A DNA stretch of 64,000 nt from Candidatus Obscuribacter phosphatis (GTDB lineage Bacteria; Cyanobacteriota; Vampirovibrionia; Obscuribacterales; Obscuribacteraceae): NCBI GenBank assembly GCA_001899315.1, contig MOYA01000001.1, positions 1,195,403-1,259,402 of the forward strand. Direction: 5' to 3'. The notes below the pieces were generated by a model. It ran no database searches, was not told the DNA's origin, and was given only the letters and a program-made list of their open reading frames with translations. This document shows, piece by piece, positions 18,634 to 30,072 of the stretch (within the stretch, counting starts at the first letter, position 1; each line of letters starts with the position of its first letter). The position numbers were made by a program, and so were the translations under genes.

Positions 18634-19647
18634 TGACCCCATCCCCAGCACTTGTACCAAGCCAAGTAGACGATTGAGCAAATATCAGTCATGGTTTCAA
18701 TTAGACAGGAGAAGGTCTAATGAAAAAGAGCAGATGCACGGATGAACAGATTGTAAACATACTTAGGGAGTCGGAAACAGGCACGACCAAAGCTGAGCTT
18801 TGCTGCAAACGCGGAATCTCCACCAACAAGCTGTATAACTGGACAGCTAAGTTCGGTGGCATGCAATCTGCTGACGTTAAGCGCCTCAGAGCACTATAGG
18901 AAGGGAAGATGCAGAATGAAAAGGCTGCTCGGCGAACAGGCACTTCTGATCGACGGCTACAAGTATGCACTTTCGAAAAGTATTGACCATCTCTCAGAGA
19001 ATAGCCATTGTCGCGGCGTTTGAAGTGGTGGGAGTTAGTGAGCGCAAAGACTGCATTGCCGTGGGCTTGGCCCGGGGCACTCATCGACACAAAAGCACCA
19101 AGAAGGATGAATCTGAACTGCGTGAACAGATAAAGGAGATTGCGCATGCTCGAAAACGATTTTGCTACGAGCGAATAACCTGGCTGTTGCAACGTGGCGG
19201 TCTGCGCATCAACAATAAGCGGGTTTACCGAATATACAAACAATCAGGTGCGCAAGCGATGCCGCAAGAGAGAGCGTCGACGTCGCAAACCGCTTGAACC
19301 AGCCACATATCCTTGTCAAAGATGGTCGCTAGATTTCGTTAGCGACAGCTTATCCATCGGCAGAAGATTCAGAACGCTGAACGTCATCGACGAATGTACG
19401 CGCGAGTGCCTGGCGATGGAGGTGGATTTCAGTTTGCCTGGAGAGCGTGTTGTAAGAGTCTTGGAGCGTCTCGACTGGTGCTATGGGAAGCCCTGAAGCG
19501 CGCACAATCACTGAGGGATGGAGGTACGGGTACAACACGATAAGACCGCGCGGGTCGCTGGGAAGAATTGCACCGTCGGAATTCGCTCAGCAATTTCGAG
19601 AACAGAAATTGTCCGCTTGACGGGGTCCAAGAAAATGGGCGGGGTCA
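18634..19647 (+). mobile_element. Decayed IS3-family element, left border of island
   Basis: The left end (TGACCCCATCCCCAGCACTT at 18634) and the right end (reverse complement TGACCCCGCCCATTTTCTTG, ending in CA at 19647) share TGACCCC, CTTG, ACC and CAAG at matching positions. They are thus imperfect terminal inverted repeats with IS3-type TG...CA ends. Between them lie a broken orfA and orfB. The bases flanking the ends (TTAT and GTCG) do not match, so the target duplication is lost or the island has rearranged. A second, shorter copy lies inverted at 29430-30072. Confidence 0.8.
18721..19496 (+). pseudogene. IS3-family transposase OrfA/OrfB remnants
   Basis: OrfA starts at ATG 18721 after AGGAGAAGG (MKKSRCTDEQIVNILRESET..., an HTH_8-type DNA-binding domain) but stops early at 18898. 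Its usual C-terminus reappears in another frame (LKRLLGEQALLIDGYKYALS-like, ending near 18986). OrfB begins in the 18965 frame with the HTH_21 part (YERITWLLQRGGLRIN), shifts frame near 19240, and continues with the integrase core LDFVSDSLSIGRRFRTLNVIDECTRECLA (DDE Asp), stopping at 19496. The remaining core is not in frame. Several independent breaks make it inactive. Confidence 0.85.
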
Positions 19648-19737
19648 GTCGTCGATCACTGGACAGATATCTCATGCTGCTCCCGCGCTCTGCCAAGCTT
19701 CTCCGCCGAGCTATCAACAACCAAAGGAGTTCGTTAC

Positions 19738-21282
19738 TCAGGCTCTAAAGTGTTCAAAAATTGGACCAGCCCTTAGTTCTGCCATATGGGCAGCAACTTG
19801 AGGATCTGCGAAAATGAATGCTGTCAGCTGACGGATTTTAGCAGAAATTGATTGGTCGAATTCAACTATGGATAGAAGAAGCCTTCCTTGTTCGATATCC
19901 GTTGAGTCGAAAATGAGCTCTAAAACAAGCTTCTTTCCAATTCGTGCTTTTGCCCGCCAGACGAACTTTGGTAGATTTCGAAAAAGAATATTCTTTCTTA
20001 CGGATGGAGTCGTAGTAGACGATTTGAATATATCTGACTTAAAGTCATTCACCGATGACAAAAATATGTCCCATTCAAACTCACCAAGCTTTTTAGCGCT
20101 AGGTGTCAGATTTGCCCAATCTCTAAGCATGCGATCGAATTGGATAACGGTATCCAATATAGTGGCAAACGGGATGCGAATATTATTGTCCAGTGGGACA
20201 AGCATGTTTTCTCCAACTGCATAGTGCGTACCGACACCTCCGAATGAGGTAGACAAATGAAACGATGGCAGCCCCTTCTTTTTTCCTTTCATGAAGGACA
20301 TTCGCGCAAATGGACCAACCTGATCATCATGTGCGTAAATCTTATTTATTCGGTCCGCGCGCAATTTGAAACCATTTCTACTTACAGAACGAGGGCGCGA
20401 GTCGGGCAATCGAAAACCCGTTAGGGTAACAGCATGCCATCCTACAGACTTTCCTCCAAATTCAAAGAGCTCGAGACCGAGTACCACAGGAATCTTTGCG
20501 TTCAGGTAGGCATATAATGTACTGCTCAAAGTGTACTGGTCCTTCCCTCCACCAAGCACAAGTGGTTCCAACCCGACCGCTCGAACAGCCTGAGCCATTT
20601 CTGGAAAAGTTAGACCTTTGTTTGGGAAAATTCTTGACAGAGATCCAGATCCTCTTTTTGCTGCTGACGTGATCTGATGAGGCGATGGAATCTCATGATG
20701 GAATGTTTCACCTGTGCAATGAAGAGCAGACCAGAGCGCACTCGTAGCGCAAGCCGCAGTCACGGTGTCTTGTTCCTGAAATGCAATTGTGTCAACGGAC
20801 AAGGAGATTCCAAACAAATTGGCTTTGTATGTCTTGGTAATTGGATAATGCCGTTCAGGGCCAGCATAAGTTTTCAAACAAGTTCTGCCTAATAATGTTG
20901 TGGGCAGTGGCTTTACAACAACAAATCCAAGATATGCCTTTTGCAGCCGCTCCTCTGACAGCTTCCCTCGACGGTTTTCGATAAATCCAGTGAATTCTTC
21001 GGGGCTGAACTTGATGTCGAAAAAGTGCAAACGCCTGCACATGCGATCATAACCGTGAAAACAACCAACGTAGTAAGCAGTGTAATCATCGAGGAAGTGC
21101 TGATCTACGTAATTGTTTTCTGCAACTACTGTTTTGGTTTCCAGAAAGCCGAAGTACTCTTTGAAATATATACCGTGAATTCGACGTTCCCATGATTCGG
21201 GTGCTGTCCTTGCGCCTGCCGTCAACAGCTTAATCAAGGACTGGTGTGAATATGGTACTACCTCGAAAAGCGGTTTGGTCAT
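19738..21282 (-). CDS. Papain-like (C39-like) cysteine protease candidate
   Basis: A 514-aa soluble protein without a signal peptide. A papain-fold core is suggested by Gln169/Gln171 and Cys178 in AFQEQDTVTAACATSALW, His283 in VGWHAVTLTGF and Asp319/320 in KIYAHDDQVGPFARM, in the Gln-Cys-His-Asp order of C39-like peptidases. Residues 1-165 and 340-514 match nothing I know. It lies 12 bp after a small basic protein and is divergent from the XRE/ubiquitin-like operon. It could be a second deconjugating protease, an effector, or unrelated cargo; the triad is seen, the role is inference. Confidence 0.65.
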   Translation of the reverse strand: MTKPLFEVVPYSHQSLIKLLTAGARTAPESWERRIHGIYFKEYFGFLETKTVVAENNYVDQHFLDDYTAYYVGCFHGYDRMCRRLHFFDIKFSPEEFTGFIENRRGKLSEERLQKAYLGFVVVKPLPTTLLGRTCLKTYAGPERHYPITKTYKANLFGISLSVDTIAFQEQDTVTAACATSALWSALHCTGETFHHEIPSPHQITSAAKRGSGSLSRIFPNKGLTFPEMAQAVRAVGLEPLVLGGGKDQYTLSSTLYAYLNAKIPVVLGLELFEFGGKSVGWHAVTLTGFRLPDSRPRSVSRNGFKLRADRINKIYAHDDQVGPFARMSFMKGKKKGLPSFHLSTSFGGVGTHYAVGENMLVPLDNNIRIPFATILDTVIQFDRMLRDWANLTPSAKKLGEFEWDIFLSSVNDFKSDIFKSSTTTPSVRKNILFRNLPKFVWRAKARIGKKLVLELIFDSTDIEQGRLLLSIVEFDQSISAKIRQLTAFIFADPQVAAHMAELRAGPIFEHFRA

Positions 21283-21294
21283 AGCAATTAATCG

Positions 21295-21480
21295 CTACAA
21301 GGTCATTGGCTGAAGTAAGCTCTCTGGTTTGACTTGGCGAACACTTTCCAATTTCTTAGTAATAGCGTACGCTGCTTGGATTGACAATCTCATCTGTTTG
21401 GCTTTTTCCGATGAGGAAGCGGAGCGCTTACGTGAACCGCTAGCGCTCTTGCCGCGTTTCGTTGCAACCCTTGTGCTCAT
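21295..21480 (-). CDS. Small basic protein preceding the papain-like protease
   Basis: 61 aa starting at ATG 21480 with GGTGG four bases upstream; an in-frame TTG at 21492 is less likely. The first 30 residues are Arg/Lys/Ser-rich (TKRGKSASGSRKRSASSSEK), followed by one amphipathic helix. The composition suggests nucleic-acid binding or a disordered cap. It is the first gene of a two-gene minus-strand unit with the protease (12-bp gap). I do not recognise the family. Confidence 0.55.
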   Translation of the reverse strand: MSTRVATKRGKSASGSRKRSASSSEKAKQMRLSIQAAYAITKKLESVRQVKPESLLQPMTL

Positions 21481-21582
21481 AAATCCACCCAATTTAGGTT
21501 AGCCAAACCGTTCTTTAATATTAAACCAGCTGAAAAGCGAATTGGCAACCATTTTCACGACTTCGAGCTTGACATTTTGTGC

Positions 21583-21601
21583 GTAAGCCAAGTAAGCTTA
21601 C
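21583..21601. promoter_or_regulatory. XRE-promoter operator: GTAAGC-N3-GTAAGCTTAC
   Basis: A half site GTAAGC (21583-21588), three bases, then the perfect palindrome GTAAGCTTAC (21592-21601), all just upstream of ATG 21609. A TTGACA at 21569-21574 precedes it. The same arrangement, with the same 3-base spacing, occurs before the ubiquitin-like operon at 22700-22718. Confidence 0.75.
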
Positions 21602-21608
21602 ATTATAT

Positions 21609-21947
21609 ATGAAGACGCTTGGGCAAAAAATTAGGGAATTGCGGGAGCTTAAAGGCCTTTCTCTTCGGGAAATGTCCAAAAAGCTTGAGGTATCTGCTGC
21701 ATTTTTATCAGATATCGAATTGGGCCGCAGATTCCCCTCAGAGGAAGTTCTGAAGAAGATCTGCAAGATTCTTCAAGTCAAGTTTGACGAACTTAAAGAT
21801 CTCGATCCAAGGGCCCCAATCGAAGAGCTCAAGCGCATGTCTGAAGGTGACCCTCAATATGCTCTTGCATTGCGGACAATGGTAGATGACGACGTAAGCG
21901 CTAGCGAGCTGCTTCATTGGCTCCAGCAGAAGAAAAAGAACAAGTGA
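21609..21947 (+). CDS. XRE-family transcriptional regulator
   Basis: 112 aa. Residues 4-58 form a Cro/C1 helix-turn-helix (LGQKIRELRELKGLSLREMS, KKLEVSAAFLSDIELGRRFP, SEEVLKKICKIL). The C-terminal half is acidic and helical. An in-frame GTG at 21579 would lengthen it by 10 residues but would place the operator inside the gene, so ATG 21609 is preferred. The GTAAGCTTAC palindrome at its own promoter and at the ubiquitin-like operon suggests it represses both. Confidence 0.9.
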   Translation: MKTLGQKIRELRELKGLSLREMSKKLEVSAAFLSDIELGRRFPSEEVLKKICKILQVKFDELKDLDPRAPIEELKRMSEGDPQYALALRTMVDDDVSASELLHWLQQKKKNK

Positions 21948-22661
21948 AATGTCTGTTTGCAACCGTCAAAAGACTGTATTTCACAACGCAGAAAGTTGAA
22001 GACCTCTGTGAGAAAGCGCTAAACAGCGTCAAGTTCATGCCAGATAATCCCGAGGCGATCAGGTTCGATCGGTTTTTGGAAAGAAAAGTTTGGTATCTCG
22101 CCTGAATATGAGGATTTGCCACTAGGTATTCTCGGTTTTAGGTGCTTCAGTAATGTTGGCGCAGAATCGGTCGTGATCAGTCGCTCACTTGACGAAGATC
22201 CAAGCGACCAGAGCCGAAGACGAGTCAGATCCGCTTTAGGTCTCGAGGCTGGTCAGATCTTGATGCACGAGAAACTCTTCGCAGCTCAAGAAGCTACGCA
22301 GCTGAGCCTGCTCGCACTGGAGCTATCGAAACCTAAGGTTCTTTGTCGGGACGGCTACGAACTTTCCAAGTTCAGCAAGCCTTCGTATTCTGTTAATTGG
22401 TGGAAGCACCAAGCCAACATGGTGATCGGCTTATTATTAATGCCTCGATGTTTGGTGTCTAAGGCCGTCGAGCCATTCCTAATTATACGTAGGGTCCACC
22501 ATGACTCCTGCCAACAGGCAAGTAACGTTCTTTCTGAGCTGTTTGATGTTGTTGTGCGAATACGGGTCGACGAGTTGCACCCACCCCACATGAACAGCCA
22601 TCTGGTAATTTTAATTCGAAAACAAAAAAAAAAACTTGTCAGCTATGTAAGCTTACGCTAG
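21917..22661 (+). pseudogene. ImmA/IrrE-like metallopeptidase, frameshifted, zinc motif lost
   Basis: The frame starting at 21917 overlaps the XRE gene and ends at 22105 after an N-terminal helix region. The family's next segment is in the +1 frame: FWKEKFGISPEYEDLPLGIL, VVISRSLDEDP, then LGLEAGQILMHEKLF, and later VNWWKHQANMVIGLLLMPR. The switch falls at a run of five T near 22074. In active members the HExxH helix reads like LAHEAGHGLLH; here it reads LGLEAGQILMH, so both zinc-binding His are gone. XRE followed by ImmA/IrrE is a classic regulator/protease pair. Here the protease half looks dead. Confidence 0.7.
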
Positions 22662-22664
22662 TAT
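22636..22664 (+). promoter_or_regulatory. Promoter of the ubiquitin-like operon with operator in the spacer
   Basis: TTGTCA (22636-22641), 17 bp, TAGTAT (22659-22664). The 10-bp palindrome GTAAGCTTAC (22647-22656) sits inside the spacer, so a bound repressor would block RNA polymerase. Transcription would begin near 22671, about 90 bases before the first gene. Confidence 0.7.
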
Positions 22665-22699
22665 ACAAGTATCGGATCGGAATTTTTTTTGGTCCGAGT

Positions 22700-22718
22700 G
22701 TAAGCGGAGTAAGCTTAC
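22700..22718. promoter_or_regulatory. Second operator of the ubiquitin-like operon
   Basis: GTAAGC (22700-22705), GGA, GTAAGCTTAC (22709-22718): the same layout as at the XRE promoter. It lies downstream of the predicted start of transcription, so it could act as a roadblock or cooperate with the spacer site. Confidence 0.7.
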
Positions 22719-22762
22719 TGCGCTGAAACAAACTAACCCATATTCTCTAAAGGAGTCGATAA

Positions 22763-23434
22763 ATGGGCAATTACGTTAGGGAACACACGCCGTTCAATTC
22801 CGGCAACCATCTGGCTGAAGTAAATGGGGTCCAAATCGCTTTCACGGATCCTGTCCCGCAGGGTAGACAGATTCTCTCCGAAGCTGGCTACGATCCCGCT
22901 GATGAGCATCTGTTGATACAGCTGCTCCATCACGAAACCAGATCGGTGTCACTTGATGAAATGGTTGACTTGCGAACAGAAGGAGCCAAAAACTTCATGG
23001 CATTCCGAAATGATCGTATCTTTCGATTCACAATAAATGATCGCGGTTACGAATGGGGAACTGAGCTAATAGGCGAGCCCATGCTGCGCCGGCTGGCAGG
23101 CATTTCAAACGACGCTGTATTGGTGCTGGAATCTGAGGATGGAGAAGTCGTCCTGGAGCCGTACGCTCAAGTCAATCTGAGCGAATCTGGCACTGAACAT
23201 ATACAGAGTAAGAGCCGATACATAACGGTCTCTTTGAATGGCGACAAACGCGAGATTCCACGCGGTATTTACACGATGGAGCAGCTCATCGTGATCCTGC
23301 CTGTTGAGCCCGGTTATGTACTTAACTTGCTCGATGCCGACGGAAAACTTACTGCACTCAAGTCTGATGAAAAGCTGCGTGTCAAAGAAGGCATGAAATT
23401 CTTCAGCCAGGTACCTTGCGGAGCCTCATCATGA
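22763..23434 (+). CDS. Triple ubiquitin-like protein (multiubiquitin type)
   Basis: A 223-aa protein with three beta-grasp-like repeats at about 16-82, 84-148 and 150-218. Each follows the bacterial multiubiquitin layout: (I/F)xxNG or FTIND start, a helix (GRQILSEAGY; GEPMLRRLAGI; TMEQLIVILPV), a DLRTEGAKNFM / NLSESGTEHI / RVKEGMKFFS strand. The C-terminus is FFSQVPCGASS: removal of the last three residues would expose Gly220, as in processed ubiquitin-like modifiers. AGGAG lies seven bases before the ATG. Its stop overlaps the next start as ATGA. The proposed role is the modifier conjugated by the E1/E2 encoded downstream. Confidence 0.85.
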   Translation: MGNYVREHTPFNSGNHLAEVNGVQIAFTDPVPQGRQILSEAGYDPADEHLLIQLLHHETRSVSLDEMVDLRTEGAKNFMAFRNDRIFRFTINDRGYEWGTELIGEPMLRRLAGISNDAVLVLESEDGEVVLEPYAQVNLSESGTEHIQSKSRYITVSLNGDKREIPRGIYTMEQLIVILPVEPGYVLNLLDADGKLTALKSDEKLRVKEGMKFFSQVPCGASS

Positions 23435-23763
23435 CTAACATATCTATTCATTTCGACGCACTCAAACAGATATGCCCTGCTGCGACCATTTTGACCGAGG
23501 GCGGAAAAGCATTGGTGCTCCTTCCGAATATGCAGGTGGTCTCAGCCGGGCAAATACTCACGATGACACTACTGCTGGTGCCTTTTGAGCATACAGGCTA
23601 TAAGACTAGGCTCTTTTTTGAGCGAAAAATTGACGGTCGCGGCTCGAATTGGAACCAGCATCGCGTGGTCGACAAGCAATGGTGGGCACCGTCCTGGCAA
23701 GGTGTGCCTGCCGATCTACCCTGGACTGCAATACTTCTAGAACACTTGAGGTGCGTCGCATGA
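23431..23763 (+). CDS. E2-like protein (prokaryotic E2 family E type)
   Basis: 110 aa from ATG 23431, overlapping the modifier gene by 4 bp. An N-terminal helix (SIHFDALKQICPAATILTEG) is followed by beta strands (KALVLLPNM, TLLLVPFEHTGY, TRLFFERK) and a conserved-looking WNQHRVVDKQWWAPSW segment with a helix (WTAILLEHL). This matches the small E2/UBC-like proteins that accompany multiubiquitin genes. The only Cys are C15 and C108; no Cys lies where the classical catalytic Cys would be expected, so the chemistry may differ (His/Trp-rich loop) or C108 may serve. Assignment rests mainly on context plus this pattern. Confidence 0.7.
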   Translation: MTNISIHFDALKQICPAATILTEGGKALVLLPNMQVVSAGQILTMTLLLVPFEHTGYKTRLFFERKIDGRGSNWNQHRVVDKQWWAPSWQGVPADLPWTAILLEHLRCVA

Positions 23764-24266
23764 ACATCACATTCAAAATCACATCACGATTACTTGAAAA
23801 AATTCGCGCCGATCTCAGGCGACGACATTCCTTCGCTTATGAACGGGTCGGATTCATTTCGGCCGGGCTCTCATTTGCAGACGGAAACAAGGTGCTCATA
23901 TTGGCACGGGACTACCTGCCAGTGGAGGACGAAGACTATTTGCCTGACCTGACCGTTGGTGCGCTCTTGGGCTCGGAAGCCATCAGGAAAGCTCTTCAAT
24001 GGTCAATCTCCAAAGGCAATGCTGTTTTCCACGTGCATAGTCACAGCGGCATAGGCATGCCATCTTTCAGTGCAATCGATCTGCATGAGAGCTCCAAGTT
24101 CATGCTGGATTTTCTAAAAGTGAGCCCTATGAGGCTCCATGGCGCCTTAGTGCTTAGTAACGACTTGGCTTCTGGGCTTGCTGTCTTTGACAGAAATCAA
24201 CCGTGTATACCCGTCGACAGTTTTGTTGAAGTCGGCTGCCCCATCAAGAAATGGAGTAGAACCTAA
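23760..24266 (+). CDS. JAMM/MPN-type metallopeptidase (deubiquitinase-like)
   Basis: 168 aa from ATG 23760, overlapping the E2-like stop by 4 bp; a longer frame runs back to 23649 but is shadow. The JAMM zinc site is complete: Glu28 (YERVGF), His93 and His95 (HVHSHSGIGMP), Ser104 and Asp107 (FSAIDL). There is no membrane segment. In related operons such proteins trim the modifier precursor and remove conjugates. The CGASS tail of the upstream modifier is a fitting substrate. The stop TAA overlaps the next ATG by one base. Confidence 0.88.
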   Translation: MNITFKITSRLLEKIRADLRRRHSFAYERVGFISAGLSFADGNKVLILARDYLPVEDEDYLPDLTVGALLGSEAIRKALQWSISKGNAVFHVHSHSGIGMPSFSAIDLHESSKFMLDFLKVSPMRLHGALVLSNDLASGLAVFDRNQPCIPVDSFVEVGCPIKKWSRT

Positions 24267-25183
24267 TGAATAGCGATAATCGCCAAAGCTTCTTAGGACC
24301 AGACAGTGACCATAATCTCTCCGCGGCGACAATCGGATTGGTTGGGCTAGGGGGAGGTGGATCTCATCTGGTACTGCAATGTGCTCACCTCGGAATCGGG
24401 CGTTATATCCTTTGCGATCCAGACATTATTGAGCTTTCTAACACTAATCGCCTAGTATGTGGCACTATTTCTGACGTTGAGCGAGAACTTGCAAAAGTTG
24501 AGATCGCCAAGCGAACCATTCGAGCACTTCTGCCCAATGCTCAGATAATTTCAATAACTGGCTCGTGGCAGGAAGCGGTTGAGCAATTGAAGCTTTGTGA
24601 TGTAATCATCGGTGCTGTTGATTCCTTTACAGAAAGAGAGCAACTTGAACGCTTTGCGCGTAGATACATCATTCCATACATCGACATCGGCATGGAAGTC
24701 ACTCACCGCCCGCTTCTCGACGATTTTCTCATCAGTGGACAGGTTATTCTTTCGTTCCCAGGCAAAGCTTGTTTGCGATGTTGCAACTTTATAACTGATG
24801 AGCGCCTAGTACAAGAAGCTCAGCAATATGGCGCAGCTGGAGGTCGTCCTCAGGTGGTTTGGCCGAATGGTGTGCTGGCCTCAACCGCCATCGGTCTCAT
24901 GGTGCAATTGCTTACACCTTGGTCTCGTTTTTCGGTCGACTTCAACTATCTCGAATATGACGGCAACAAGTCAATGATTGCATCTAGCTTTTGGGTAGAG
25001 CAGCTCAGAAACAAGCACTGTCCGCACCACCCCGTAGACGAGACAGGTGACCCGTTCTTTGATATTCGAGAGTATTCCAAACCGCACGTTACCGATCAAT
25101 TAAGCGATGTCGTCGAACCAAGAAGCTCTTGGATGCGTCCGCTCAAGAAGCTAGTTGGTTGGCTCCGCAAGCTTCGGCACTAG
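24266..25183 (+). CDS. E1-like ThiF/MoeB-family adenylyltransferase
   Basis: A 305-aa protein of the E1/ThiF fold that should adenylate the C-terminus of the ubiquitin-like protein using ATP. The nucleotide loop is GLVGLGGGGSH (residues 24-34), the acidic loop CDPDIIELSNTNRLV (50-64) carries the Mg and ATP residues, and ADP-ribose-side AVDSFTER follows. A Cys cluster KACLRCC (168-173) with HCPHH (251-255) is a likely zinc site. The basic C-terminus (KKLVGWLRKLRH) is unusual. It is the last gene of the coupled four-gene set. Confidence 0.9.
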   Translation: MNSDNRQSFLGPDSDHNLSAATIGLVGLGGGGSHLVLQCAHLGIGRYILCDPDIIELSNTNRLVCGTISDVERELAKVEIAKRTIRALLPNAQIISITGSWQEAVEQLKLCDVIIGAVDSFTEREQLERFARRYIIPYIDIGMEVTHRPLLDDFLISGQVILSFPGKACLRCCNFITDERLVQEAQQYGAAGGRPQVVWPNGVLASTAIGLMVQLLTPWSRFSVDFNYLEYDGNKSMIASSFWVEQLRNKHCPHHPVDETGDPFFDIREYSKPHVTDQLSDVVEPRSSWMRPLKKLVGWLRKLRH

Positions 25184-25198
25184 CCTTGCTTGTGTCGC

Positions 25199-25227
25199 TT
25201 GACGAATGGTAACATATGTGTTACTAT
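25199..25227 (+). promoter_or_regulatory. HigBA promoter with palindromic operator; possible leaderless start
   Basis: TTGACG (25199-25204), exactly 17 bp, TACTAT (25222-25227). The inverted repeat GTAACA-TATG-TGTTAC (25209-25224) fills the spacer and touches the -10, as expected for toxin-antitoxin autorepression. Transcription would begin near 25234, which is the A of the ATG chosen for the toxin. Confidence 0.7.
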
Positions 25228-25233
25228 GGCGGA

Positions 25234-25635
25234 ATGAGAGTAGAAGAATATCTTCTGGAAGATGGTTCCAGCCCCTACAAAACATGGTTCGATGACCTCG
25301 ATGTCAAAGCCGCAGCAAAAGTTACCTCTGCAAAAGTGCGTATGGAGCGGGGGCTAACATCGGCAATCAAATGGTTTGATGGAATTGGAGAATACATTAT
25401 TGATTGGGGTCCTGGTTATCGAATCTATTTAGCACAAGACGGCAAAGACCTCATTATCTTGTTCGGTGGCGGAACGAAGAAGGGGCAAAACGAAGACATT
25501 AAGGAGGCTAAGCGCTTGCACGAAGAATACAAAGTAAGAAAGGCTGCAAAAGCGAAAGCCGAGAAAGAGAAAGAAAAACAGAAGTCCAGCAGAACCAAGA
25601 AGACGGACAATAAACTTAAGAGAGACAAAAGGTAG
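25234..25635 (+). CDS. RelE/HigB-like toxin
   Basis: 133 aa. Residues 1-95 match the small phage-Gp49/HigB-type killer family: VEEYLLEDGSSPYKTWFDDL, then RMERGLTSAIKWFDGIGEY, then GPGYRIYLAQDGKDLIILFG and GGTKKGQNEDIKEAKRL. These toxins cleave mRNA on the ribosome; RelE-type basic residues are present in the last helix. A Lys/Glu/Ala-rich tail of about 35 residues is longer than usual. An in-frame ATG at 25216 lies inside the operator, so ATG 25234 is preferred. The antitoxin gene follows after 4 bp. Confidence 0.88.
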   Translation: MRVEEYLLEDGSSPYKTWFDDLDVKAAAKVTSAKVRMERGLTSAIKWFDGIGEYIIDWGPGYRIYLAQDGKDLIILFGGGTKKGQNEDIKEAKRLHEEYKVRKAAKAKAEKEKEKQKSSRTKKTDNKLKRDKR

Positions 25636-25639
25636 TGAT

Positions 25640-25981
25640 ATGGCACTTACACGCAATTTTAAACAGACAGTTGTCGAACGCGTAAATCGAGAACCTGCGT
25701 TTGCCAAAGCGTTGCTCGATGAAGCAACCAAGCTGTTTCTGACTGGAGAATCAGAAACAGCCCGTCTAATTCTTCGCGATCTCGTCAATGCCACCATTGG
25801 TTTCGAAGGATTGGCTCGTGCCATCGATACACCTGCAAAAAGCTTGCACCGAATGCTTTCGGAACGCGGTAACCCAAGCATGGATAATACCGCCGCCATC
25901 TTCTGCGCTGTATGTGAAAATCTCGATGTAAAGATTGAAACTGTTGTAGTTGACGTTGGAAGAAAGAAAAAGTCTCGCTAG
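25640..25981 (+). CDS. HigA-like antitoxin, helix-turn-helix
   Basis: 113 aa. The C-terminal part has the addiction-module antidote HTH (TIGFEGLARAIDTPAKSLHR, MLSERGNPSMDNTAAIF), and the N-terminal part has the expected helix (FAKALLDEATKLFLTGESET). It should bind the toxin and the GTAACA/TGTTAC operator. The toxin-first order is the HigBA arrangement. The C-terminus is basic (GRKKKSR). Confidence 0.88.
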   Translation: MALTRNFKQTVVERVNREPAFAKALLDEATKLFLTGESETARLILRDLVNATIGFEGLARAIDTPAKSLHRMLSERGNPSMDNTAAIFCAVCENLDVKIETVVVDVGRKKKSR

Positions 25982-26068
25982 AGAGGTCCGCTTTTACTGC
26001 AACTTTCAGCATTCGATTGTCAGTTCTCAATTCACGGTTGGGCTTTACACATGTGCTTTCCGACTGTA

Positions 26069-26120
26069 GGGCAGACGGCGACCGACTGAGGCAAGTAGAA
26101 AGTGTTCTTCACCGTCTGCC
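26069..26120. repeat. Long-loop inverted repeat in a gene-free stretch
   Basis: GGCAGACGG (26070-26078) pairs with CCGTCTGCC (26112-26120) across a 33-base loop. It lies in the 256-bp gap (25982-26237) between the antitoxin and the kinase. The rest of the gap holds short out-of-frame stretches and no gene I can support. Confidence 0.4.
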
Positions 26121-26237
26121 GCTCCTAGCCTGGCAAATGCTTCAAGCCGATTCAGTCGCTATGTCCATATTCCTGCTGGCGGCTAGCAGCCGGGCTCCAA
26201 CTCGCTCCTTCGGCAAAAAAAACTGGGCATAGTTCTT

Positions 26238-27404
26238 ATGGTGACTGAATATGGCGCTGGGTCAGATGAGTATACTTACGCAAACAAAACCAATTTTGAG
26301 GACTTGAATTTGAAACAAATTGACTTATCCTCCTCATTCGAGGAGGTTGTTTACTCTGTGAATGCCCAATTTGAGCCAGGAAGCATGCAATCTGGAATAG
26401 CTCGAAATGCCGTCATCGAAATGTGGGGACAGCTGGTCGGAAAGAATAGGGCCATCCGGGAGATTGATGAGACAATTGCGAAATATGGTTCAATCTCAAG
26501 GACTGCGAAAGCACTTGCCGCACGTCCGGAAACGATTAAACGTTTCAGGGCATTTTTTGAAGCTTTGCCAGATGAACCTGACGCGCACATTAGGTACAGA
26601 TTGGGCGATCAAGTCGGTCCCTGGCGCCTTCGTGAAAAACTAGGGAGGGGTGGCAATGCAGAAGTTTGGAAAGCCACTAAGAATGACGCCACGATTGGTG
26701 CAATCAAACTCTGCTTAGCGAACTCGTATCGAACCAATACTTTGACTCGCTTCACCTCCGAAATTGAAGCACTGAGTCGGCTGAAGGACCTACCTGGCGT
26801 AATCCCAATTATCGACTATTATTTACCAAGCCGGTATGACAAGCAGGATATTCCTTGGCTTGTGATGCCTATGGCGGAACAATTTCCGAAGGTGATGGAA
26901 GAAGCGAATGATTTAGTAAAATTCGTGGCATTTTCTTCTATCGCAAAGACAATGGCAATTGTGCATGATCGGAGTATCTCTCATCGAGATCTCAAGCCTG
27001 AAAACCTTTTCTACCTTAACGGCCAGTGGTGTATCGGAGATTTCGGAATCGCATCGTTTCCAGAGAAGGTAGCCTTAACAAAGGACCGACAAAAGCTGGG
27101 ACCGGCGTTTTATCTAGCGCCAGAGATGCTCAATAATGCCGGTTCTGCAGATGGCAAAAAGGCCGACGTTTACTCATTGGCGAAAACCATTTGGGTCACA
27201 CTAACAGAAATGCGCAATCCATTACCTGGTACATTATGGCAAAACGAAGAAGTAACGAAGCTCACGACCTATTCGTTTGGTTCCGCAAGTCATCAGATTG
27301 AGCCCATGCTGGAAGCTTGCACTTTGAACGATCCCACAAAACGTCCAGACATGGCTGATTTGGCAAAAGAGTTGGAATATTGTGTTCGCCGACGATTTGA
27401 GTAG
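26238..27404 (+). CDS. Island Ser/Thr protein kinase with N-terminal extension
   Basis: A 388-aa protein. Residues 1-120 are a helical region of unknown family (IREIDETIAKYGSISRTAKA, ARPETIKRFRAFFEALP looks like a small HTH-type module). Residues 127-385 are a Hanks-type kinase: Gly loop LGRGGNAEVW, Lys157 (AIKLCLA), HRDLKPEN (249-256), DFG (268-270), APEML and a C-lobe Asp. There is no membrane segment, unlike most housekeeping PASTA/PknB kinases. It lies among defence-type genes, and kinases with extra N-terminal modules are common there. No ribosome site is clear before ATG 26238. Confidence 0.88.
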   Translation: MVTEYGAGSDEYTYANKTNFEDLNLKQIDLSSSFEEVVYSVNAQFEPGSMQSGIARNAVIEMWGQLVGKNRAIREIDETIAKYGSISRTAKALAARPETIKRFRAFFEALPDEPDAHIRYRLGDQVGPWRLREKLGRGGNAEVWKATKNDATIGAIKLCLANSYRTNTLTRFTSEIEALSRLKDLPGVIPIIDYYLPSRYDKQDIPWLVMPMAEQFPKVMEEANDLVKFVAFSSIAKTMAIVHDRSISHRDLKPENLFYLNGQWCIGDFGIASFPEKVALTKDRQKLGPAFYLAPEMLNNAGSADGKKADVYSLAKTIWVTLTEMRNPLPGTLWQNEEVTKLTTYSFGSASHQIEPMLEACTLNDPTKRPDMADLAKELEYCVRRRFE

Positions 27405-27546
27405 AATTCCATACCGACCGAGCCTGATTTTGTTTGACGCTGGGTCTCCTAGCGCGGTCATCAACGCAGTCAACGCAATCCAACTTGACAGTAAGCATAC
27501 CTCTGCCAGCTCGGCAATAAGCCCAACATACCTGTTGTTTTTGAAG

Positions 27547-28047
27547 TTATGTCGGCTCCGAAACTGGAAGCAACGTTGCTGGATTCTTGACGTAGTCCGA
27601 CAAATATTCCTTTGCCTTCGTAGCTGGAAAGCCACTTATAGTAGAGTTTTCTTCGTCGCCACGGCATACAAATGCGGCAATATATCCCTTCCTATCGATT
27701 ATAGGTGCACCGCTACAGCCCCTAAAGAACTTATGTCCAGGATATTATGATTTTGGTTCTTAGAGGTTTGCACTGCTTCCGTTGACCCCACTCAGTGTCT
27801 TGAGTTGGATCGAGATGATCTGCTTACCTTCTTCGATTTCCCTGCTGAGCACTGGGTCCACATTCGCACAACAAATCCCATTTGAATCAATCTTCGCGAC
27901 TGTCAGATTGCGCACTGCAAAGACTCGCGGTTGCCTGACTAGAGACACAATGCTAACGATGGTGTTCAAGCTATGCGGAAGCGCACAAAAGCTATGGCGC
28001 CGACTGAATGTGCCGGAACGTCTTGCCGACGTGCTGACCGGCATCAA
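27547..28047 (-). pseudogene. Trypsin-like serine protease remnant
   Basis: A minus-strand open frame at 27547-27744 encodes the C-terminal part of a chymotrypsin-fold protease: KFFRGCSGAPIIDRKGYIAA, with the nucleophile motif GCSGAP, then FVCRGDEENSTISGFPATKA and a stop. A stop codon lies just upstream. A different frame (27760-28047) contains VRQPRVFAVRNLTVAKIDSN, which could be an earlier part of the same protein after a frameshift. No complete His/Asp half is visible. The gene is convergent with the kinase. The nucleophile motif is clear; joining the two frames is inference. Confidence 0.55.
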
Positions 28048-28193
28048 TATTAAAGACGAAATCAGGGAGAAGAAGGAGACCGACTAATTTACCCCAGAAC
28101 AGAAGATTTGACAAAAACTCCAATCAGTGACCAATAATCCTAATGCCACAGTTTAATTGACAGATCCCACATGTCAGGTCTGTCTATATGTAG

Positions 28194-29387
28194 CTAATTG
28201 GTTTTGGTGATGCGGTTCATCGTCTCTTCCGTAATTACATCTTCGGTCTCGAGAGTGCCTAGGTCGCAGGCAAAAAGAAGGTCTGAAACTACTGCTTTCC
28301 AGAAATGAGAATTGTTGAGTTCATGCGGTTTGTATGCGAATTCAGAACGTGAAGATTGCTCTATTGGAAGTCTTGCATTTCTTCTGCTTTTTAGTGTTTT
28401 GTAGGTGTAGTATCCATTTGAATCAAATCCAGTAATGAGTTCTATTTCAACTCTCAGATTTCCACTAAAGTTACAGGACTCGTATAGGGACAATGCTTTT
28501 GTCGTGCAATCATGAATGCTCATTAGAACTTCTTCAAAATTAAATGAATTGGTTTCCCGATCTTTCTCGATTCCAACGCATTGGAAAATGCTTCCCCACA
28601 AGGTAATTTCTTCATAGCGCCATTCGGGGCGGAGGCATCGAACATAGTATGTCTCTTGTGCAGTTCCAAAATTTTGCAAATGTCTTCTATGGTCAAATCC
28701 GAAATCCTCTGCAAGGTTCTTAAGTGCTTTCCAGTCAAGCAAGCGTTCTTTTGGCAATGCGGGCAAAATACCTATTGCTACGAATGCTGAGCTACTGCTG
28801 CTTGCTGATGCTCGTGATTTTGCTCTTTCTAATATTTCTTGGCTTTTCTTCTCTAGTTGCTCACGTCTTCTGTAGTAACTATTGAGATCTGATGGCGTCA
28901 ATAGTTGAATTCCGTTCTTGTGCACGGTGAAGTCATTGGTCCTAATTGGCACAGTGCATTTATTCTCTGTTCCTAACCAGTGCGGTGCTTCCACGCTCTG
29001 TGGAATTCGAATAAGCATTACGAATCTATTTTCCAGATCGTGTATCTTATAGAAGTGAATTTCTGGAACTAGGCTTGGATGAATCACATTCGCACATTTC
29101 CGTCCAATTGCACCAGCCAACTTCTCTGGATCGAGTATTCCAATGACTTCAGATGGCACGCCTGGTTTACCATTGTCTTCACCCTTGGTCTTGACTCCGA
29201 CTACTATTAATCCTCCTTCCGCGTTTGCCATAGCGGCAACGTCTTTCCCAATGTCTCCTAGATCCTCGATGGTAGTTTTGTAGTCCAGGTAAGTACACTC
29301 AGCTATTCTGTGATTGCAGAACTCGTTGATATCCTCAAAAGTCAAAATATCTAAAGGATCACGAAAGATATCTGCATATCTTGGCAT
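28194..29387 (-). CDS. AlbA_2/Schlafen-type DNA-binding protein
   Basis: 397 aa. Residues 15-170 carry the AlbA_2 (Schlafen-like) domain: EFCNHRIAECTYLDYKTT, then DIGKDVAAMANAEGGLIVVG, and VMLIRIPQSVEAPHW with RTNDFTVH at its end. The remaining 230 residues are unassigned. Such proteins bind nucleic acid and occur in transcription control and phage defence. The frame extends to 29438, into the inverted repeat of the IS remnant. ATG 29387 has GGGAG eight bases upstream and is the better start. The native promoter was probably replaced by the IS end. Confidence 0.8.
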   Translation of the reverse strand: MPRYADIFRDPLDILTFEDINEFCNHRIAECTYLDYKTTIEDLGDIGKDVAAMANAEGGLIVVGVKTKGEDNGKPGVPSEVIGILDPEKLAGAIGRKCANVIHPSLVPEIHFYKIHDLENRFVMLIRIPQSVEAPHWLGTENKCTVPIRTNDFTVHKNGIQLLTPSDLNSYYRRREQLEKKSQEILERAKSRASASSSSSAFVAIGILPALPKERLLDWKALKNLAEDFGFDHRRHLQNFGTAQETYYVRCLRPEWRYEEITLWGSIFQCVGIEKDRETNSFNFEEVLMSIHDCTTKALSLYESCNFSGNLRVEIELITGFDSNGYYTYKTLKSRRNARLPIEQSSRSEFAYKPHELNNSHFWKAVVSDLLFACDLGTLETEDVITEETMNRITKTN

Positions 29388-29429
29388 TTCATCGTCTCCC
29401 ATTACTACTCGGCTGTCATAACCTAGTGG

Positions 29430-30072
29430 TGAACCCACCCATTTTCTTGTACCACGTCAAGCGGACAATTTCTGTTCTCTAAATTGCTGAGCGAATTCCG
29501 ACGGTGCAATTCTTCCCAGCGACCCGTGCGGTCTTATCGTGTTTTAGTCGTGCCTCCATTCCTCAGTGATTGTGCGCGCGTCAGGGCGTCCCATAGCACC
29601 AGGCGAGACGCTCCAAGACTCTCACAACACGCTCTCCAGGCAAACCAAAATCCACCTCTACCGCCAGGCATTCGCGCGTAAATTCGTCGATGACGTTCAG
29701 CGTTCTGAGTCTGCTGCCGCTGGATAAGCTGCCGCTAACGAAATCTAGAGGACATCTTTGACACGGATATGTGGCTTGTTCAAGCGGTTTACGAAGTCGG
29801 CGTTCTCTCTTGCGGCATCGCCTGCGCACCTGAAGTCCTTCTTGTTTGTACATTCGGTAAACGCGCTTCCTGTTGATGCGCAGACCGCCGCGTTGCAACA
29901 GCCTGGTTATTCGTTCGTAGCCAAATGGTTTTCGAGCATGCGCAATCTCCTTTATCTGTTCACGCAGTTCAGATTCATCCTTCTTGGTGCTTTTGTGTCG
30001 ATGAGTGCCCCGGGCCAAGCTGACGGCAATGCAGTTTTTGCGCTCACTAACTCCCACCACTTCAAACGCCGC
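29430..30072 (-). mobile_element. Truncated IS3-family copy, right border of island
   Basis: The terminal repeat TGAACCCACCCATTTTCTTG at 29430 is the counterpart of the right end of the 18634-19647 copy. The homology runs to about 30072, where it stops abruptly inside the N-terminus of orfB; orfA and the other end are missing. The copy is inverted relative to the first, so the two remnants face each other around an 11-kb segment. Confidence 0.8.
29581..30060 (-). pseudogene. IS3-family transposase OrfB fragment
   Basis: 159 residues remain in one frame: VGVSERKNCIAVSLARGTH, the HTH_21 segment FGYERITRLLQRGGLRINRK, and the integrase start CPLDFVSGSLSSGSRLRTLN with VIDEFTRECLAVEVDFGLPG. It then stops at 29581, before the second Asp and the Glu of the DDE site; remaining core fragments are in other frames to 29430. 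It is closely similar to the copy at 18965-19496 but less frameshifted. Confidence 0.85.

Follow-up and report, generated by a model that had tools for sequence, protein, structure and literature searches.

The window, by which we mean the whole 64,000-nucleotide stretch of DNA analysed, contains four overlapping genes on the forward strand at 22763-25183. The first gene encodes a 223 aa ubiquitin-like modifier (Ubl) resembling BubA (22763..23434, +), recognised from Multi_ubiq matches and an AlphaFold2 (AF2) model, and the second encodes a 110 aa E2-like, BubB-like protein (23431..23763, +) with a UBC fold in its AF2 model. These are followed by a gene for a 168 aa BubC-like JAMM/JAB metalloprotease (23760..24266, +), assigned from its catalytic motif and a family alignment, and by a gene for a 305 aa BubD-like E1-type adenylyltransferase with a ThiF match (24266..25183, +). 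The overlaps, each between a stop codon and the next start codon, measure 4 bp (Ubl/E2), 4 bp (E2/JAMM) and 1 bp (JAMM/E1), in agreement with the first-pass annotation of this DNA. All four genes are open and retain the residues that are invariant in their families. The profile search that the annotation had proposed identified Multi_ubiq in the Ubl (E 1e-20) and ThiF in the E1 (E 3.4e-28) but no Pfam family for the E2-like protein or the JAMM protease. PADLOC returned no match for the Ubl, E2-like and JAMM proteins and matched the E1 weakly to E1-E2 models.

Relatives were collected using an E1 profile scan of 84,980 species genomes, which gave 114 relatives, the best 80 of which were kept. 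Kept relatives with all four parts, the window and loci from the window's own order together made up 82 complete loci. In this set, drawn from the best 80 of 114 relatives and the own-order loci, the gene order was Ubl-E2-JAMM-E1 in all 82 loci, window included, and this recurrence of the same genes in the same order puts the four-gene set far beyond chance. JAMM and E1 are separate genes in 70 of the 82 loci (69 of 81 without the window) and fused in 12. Ubls of at least 200 aa were found in 46 of the 82, so that about half are three-domain-sized, with length counted from the first Met and therefore an upper bound. The same operon also occurs on plasmids, for example in Methylovirgula and Bradyrhizobium, annotated as "multiubiquitin domain-containing protein" and "ThiF family adenylyltransferase". 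The first-pass annotation had considered the gene order and the three-domain modifier distinctive. This is refuted by the order common to all 82 loci, by the 46 large Ubls, by the three-domain Ubls of solved structure (9cd2 and 9d5a) and by a 2006 account (PMC1779556) of polyUbls that carry between one and three domains and whose E2-like gene, where it stands alone, separates the Ubl gene from JAB/E1. As the order is found in every locus, the Ubl size in about half and the operon on plasmids as well, the layout is not special to the window.

Related loci span Pseudomonadota, Acidobacteriota, Verrucomicrobiota, Bacteroidota, Thermodesulfobacteriota and others. The E1 tree places the window sequence beside two gammaproteobacterial ones (support 99/88) within a mixed clade of 16, at a distance from its own lineage's copies, and this placement suggests that the operon was acquired horizontally. 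No E1 relative was found among 50,697 phage records. A second Ubl operon is present in the same genome, on a 35.6-kb contig (L106, 5251-10901), and encodes a single-domain Ubl ending in DGGSS, an E2-like protein and a fused JAMM-E1. A divergent AAA-ATPase and S8 peptidase pair lies beside this second, single-Ubl operon. In many alphaproteobacteria an ATP-binding protein and an S8 (subtilisin-type) peptidase likewise follow the operon (L092, 6074-9441; L094, 7049-10428; also L012-L015, L017, L023 and L024). As it recurs at two different Ubl operon types, the ATP-binding/S8 peptidase pair is a candidate effector module.

AF2 models of the Ubl and the E2-like protein were built on alignments of the window proteins with related proteins. 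The Multi_ubiq match (PF14452) covers three separate stretches of the Ubl, and the Ubl model (pLDDT 92.9) consists of three successive beta-grasp units at about aa 16-84, 86-152 and 153-218. By VIA-align the best match was Methylobacterium 9d5b (Z 18.4) over the first two domains, followed by E. coli 9cd2 (Z 18.1 over 203 residues) and Citrobacter 9d5a (Z 17.3 over 201 residues). The latter two, both multi-ubiquitin proteins with three domains, cover all three units. The three beta-grasp repeats described in the first-pass annotation are therefore borne out by both the Multi_ubiq stretches and the model. The CGASS tail it described is also present at the end of the Ubl (23417..23431, +), with the Gly at position -4 kept and a predicted JAMM cut after that Gly. 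This Gly is found in 79 of the 82 Ubls, the next residue varies (G in 45, Q in 11, H in 8, A in 8) and mostly SS follows. The kept feature of the tail is thus a single Gly (xG/xSS) and not a di-glycine. A reading of CGASS as a decayed di-glycine was ruled out, since family members differ in the residue that follows the Gly and locus L014 has CGASS as well.

The model of the E2-like protein (pLDDT 93.6) adopts a UBC fold. Its best match by VIA-align was Citrobacter BubB (9eae chain C; Z 9.5, rmsd 3.2, 106 of 110 residues), and the next were the Tsg101 UEV domain (Z 7.3) and then many E2 enzymes. Foldseek gave only E 0.99 and TM 0.65 against BubB, and we base the BubB-like call on the VIA-align Z score, on how much of the protein is covered and on the lower-ranking matches, which are uniformly of UBC/UEV type. 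Of the structurally aligned residues only about 7% are identical between the protein and Citrobacter BubB. No Pfam family was found for the window protein or in a scan of 45 E2-like proteins, and PDB sequence searches using the protein alone or a four-sequence E2 profile returned nothing relevant. Across 82 sequences W74, W84 and S88 are 100% conserved, H105 98% and N73 95%. No Cys is conserved among the same 82 proteins; the best Cys column reaches 56% and holds a Val in the window. Citrobacter BubB likewise has no E2-type Cys, and in a weak alignment a Thr falls near the position of S88. The small E2-like protein proposed from the sequence therefore passed the structure check with its UBC fold but has no E2 catalytic cysteine. 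The same applies to the suggestion that the operon encodes all parts of a modifier pathway: the set of Ubl, E2-like protein, JAMM and E1 is complete, but without a conserved E2 Cys the E2 thioester step that this implied is unlikely.

The JAMM protease contains E28, H93, H95 (HxH), S104 and D107, and E28, H93, H95 and D107, the intact residues listed in the first-pass annotation, are 100% conserved in the 82 sequences. The protein aligns with fused JAB-E1 proteins, and a PDB sequence search with it alone returned nothing relevant. As it has no Pfam match, its assignment is made from the catalytic motif and the family alignment. The E1 has a single ThiF domain with the glycine loop GLGGGGSH, and its adenylation residues (R62, K77, D119 and others) are 98-100% conserved in the 82 sequences. 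The Cys cluster noted earlier together with this loop corresponds to C169-x2-C172 ... C252-x-H254, which is 98% conserved in the same set, and these four residues look like a zinc site. C169, C172 and C252 are the only E1 cysteines conserved above 90%; C111 (87%) sits in the Rossmann core, and no conserved transthiolation Cys was found in the 82 E1 sequences. The best solved relative was Citrobacter BubCD (9ea4), with E 5.9e-13 for the E1 alone and 1.4e-21 using a profile; BubCD lacks the putative zinc-site cysteines. The C-terminal extension of the E1 (25050-25180) ends in a basic, Trp-containing stretch, SWMRPLKKLVGWLRKLRH, and the tails of its relatives are alike (GDPxFDIR...WW..L..R), perhaps forming an amphipathic helix.

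Upstream of the operon lies a gene for an HTH_3 protein, a probable CapH-like repressor (21609..21947, +; HTH_3 E 9.8e-15), whose PADLOC capH match (E 2.9e-13) is a generic HTH match. It overlaps by 4 bp a broken gene for a CapP-like, ImmA/IrrE-type peptidase (21944..22661, +) with a frame break near 22090. In L047 and L077 the peptidase is intact and both frames of the broken gene match it; the broken gene reads LEAGQ where intact relatives have HEAGH, so that both zinc-binding His are replaced. The change of frame could come from an error in sequencing or assembly, but the loss of HEAGH could not. The palindrome GTAAGCTTAC, a putative operator, occurs in only three exact copies in the 64 kb, one upstream of the HTH gene (21592..21601, +) and two upstream of the Ubl gene (22647..22656, + and 22709..22718, +), all at the promoter regions of these two genes. 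An HTH_3 homologue with an ImmA partner lies upstream of the Ubl gene in L047 and L077, and intact HTH and ImmA pairs adjoin the operon in L013-L015, L017, L021, L023, L024, L047, L077, L092 and L094. CapW or CapH+CapP has been reported at 219 of 544 Bub operons (PMC13373217), and the HTH gene with its broken ImmA partner appears by analogy to match the CapH+CapP arrangement, a known type of control. The HTH repressor, bound at the putative GTAAGCTTAC operators, probably holds down expression of the operon. Because the peptidase gene is broken, relief of this repression may have been lost here, unless another peptidase acts.

The operon is part of a 9.8-kb cargo segment (19648-29429) between two degenerate inverted IS3-type copies (19013-19647 and 29430-30072) with arms 91-94% alike. 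Immediately downstream of the E1 gene are a RelE/ParE-type toxin gene (TIGR02683, above cut-off) and an antitoxin-like gene (25216-25981). A Ser/Thr protein kinase gene follows at 26238-27404; its best PADLOC matches were the defence kinases mad6 and PD-T4-6, which may be generic. An AlbA_2 protein is also encoded inside the IS3-flanked segment. On the other side of the regulator a gene on the reverse strand (19738..21282, -) encodes a predicted papain-like cysteine peptidase of 514 aa (C178, H283, D320). The motifs QD..ACA..W, HA and D..G are invariant in its family, for which no Pfam, NCBIfam or PDB match was obtained above threshold; relatives match Peptidase_C39_2 and C70 weakly. Homologues lie beside the operon in L035, L036, L038, L041, L042, L048 and L039 (Sphingopyxis, Novosphingobium and a betaproteobacterium) and occur without the operon in three genomes of the window's own order. 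We tentatively consider the peptidase a plausible accessory of some Ubl-E2-JAMM-E1 operons, and not an established part of them.

With the gene content, folds, conserved residues, relatives and operator repeats of the operon all observed, we consider it likely that 22763-25183 (+) is a polyUbl/Bub-type (bacterial ubiquitination-like) operon, with all four parts as separate genes and the conjugation steps proposed below. This identity is assigned because the nearest structures are the solved multi-ubiquitin proteins and Citrobacter BubB and because the E1 is nearest to Citrobacter BubCD. The operon fits the polyUbl class of Iyer et al. 2006 (row 6e, PMC1779556) on every feature tested and is closest in structure to Bub. 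With the polyUbl class it shares one to three tandem Ubl domains, a Cys-less E2/RWD-like protein, a JAB protease and a ThiF-type E1, but here JAB and E1 are separate adjacent genes with the 1-bp overlap, and the metal-binding "Y" protein was not seen next to the window operon. The Bub system of Citrobacter (BubA/B/CD; PDB 9ea4, 9ea8, 9eae and 9d5a) likewise has a Ubl of three beta-grasp domains, a Cys-less UBC protein, the nearest E1 and a JAMM protease, and its DNA-damage-type regulators upstream may have a counterpart here. CapW, CapH+CapP or CapK+CapS is common but not universal upstream of Bub, and the window has the HTH and broken ImmA/IrrE-type genes at this place. Unlike the window operon, that of Citrobacter fuses BubA-BubB and BubC-BubD, includes DUF6527 and has an E1 without the putative zinc-site cysteines. 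DUF6527 (PF20137) had no match in the whole genome and none by phmmer in the related loci.

Bil, the BilABCD anti-phage system, also has four genes for Ubl, E2, JAMM and E1, and its letters A-B-C-D correspond to this order (PMC11354881). The BilA modifier has two Ubl domains, the catalytic Cys of BilB lies in CEHH, and BilD combines a Cys domain with two adenylation domains (PMC11354881), whereas the window has an E2 without catalytic Cys, an E1 with one adenylation domain and a Ubl with three domains. Membership of Bil was ruled out by the 82 E2-like proteins without a conserved Cys, the one ThiF domain and the three Ubl domains. As the operon class is already known from hundreds of bacteria, this locus is a good further example and not a new kind of system.

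The chemical steps given next, the targets and a possible role in stress or phage defence are inferred. The JAMM protease would trim the Ubl tail after the conserved Gly G220 (PCG/ASS) and the E1 would adenylate the C-terminal Gly exposed by trimming. Docked on the E1, the Cys-less UBC protein would then hand the Ubl over to a target with no thioester on the E2, perhaps by way of an ester at the invariant Ser88/His105, or it may position the target as an adaptor that binds non-covalently. Ester-type intermediates are a feature of Bub. The JAMM protease could also take the Ubl off its target. Multi-ubiquitin proteins form Ca2+-dependent filaments, and the first two Ubl domains, which resemble filament-forming bacterial multi-ubiquitins, may add self-assembly. 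A more specific proposal, which we find possible but doubtful, is that the unfused clade, with the E1 zinc site and no DUF6527, conjugates without a catalytic Cys in either E1 or E2. The E1 would only adenylate, Ser88 (with His105) would carry or position the Ubl, and the nearby papain-like peptidase would be a second Ubl protease, of the cysteine type, or an effector.

The operon might instead not conjugate its Ubl to proteins at all, the Ubl being activated and trimmed mainly to control its own assembly into filaments with the UBC protein as an inactive RWD/UEV-like adaptor. The absence of an E2 cysteine is in keeping with this, as are the second-best structural match of the E2-like protein, the Tsg101 UEV being an inactive E2 variant, the close Ubl relatives 9d59 and 9d5b solved as filaments and the use of the term inactive for these E2-like domains by Iyer et al. 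(PMC1779556). However, the invariant S88 and W84 and the near-invariant H105 go beyond what a pure scaffold needs, and the catalytic residues of JAMM and E1 are fully retained; we judge this explanation unlikely. A decaying island remnant that has lost its expression or regulation would account for the frameshifted ImmA/IrrE-type partner without its zinc-binding His and for the degenerate inverted IS3-type copies around the island, but hardly for four open, tightly overlapping genes with family-invariant residues kept. The CGASS tail, occurring in L014 as well, is no sign of decay either, and we consider such a remnant quite improbable.

The E1 matches both ThiF and MoeB models and shares with MoeB the lack of a conserved transthiolation Cys, which raises the alternative of sulfur-carrier activation for a cofactor such as thiamine, molybdopterin or a siderophore. 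ThiF/MoeB activators also share the single ThiF adenylation domain and the zinc-type cysteine site, but the window E1 is partnered with a Multi_ubiq Ubl, a UBC protein and a JAMM protease. The first-pass annotation had named sulfur-carrier homology as one of the findings that would count against its reading, and this homology is disfavoured: the NCBIfam matches are far under cut-off (60.2 against 275 bits for the ThiF equivalog, others lower). Moreover, the surroundings contain no rhodanese or cofactor gene, the modifier is a Multi_ubiq protein of three domains, the nearest solved E1 is BubCD and a different ThiF-family protein of the genome scores much higher (235 bits). A sulfur-carrier role is extremely improbable, and the thiamine/molybdopterin pathway was rejected on the sub-cut-off ThiF/MoeB scores and the stronger ThiF-family protein elsewhere in the genome.

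Read as a polyUbl/Bub-type operon, the locus resembles the ubiquitin-tagging machinery of human cells, and eukaryotic ubiquitination probably descends from bacterial ubiquitin-like pathways. Here the set is compact and entirely unfused, and the Melainabacteria-type genome carrying it has a second copy that is fused and encodes a single Ubl. Because all four genes are unfused each enzyme could be tested separately, and for the question of Cys-less transfer the 82-member alignment singles out G220 of the Ubl, S88 and H105 of the E2-like protein and C169, C172, C252 and H254 of the E1.
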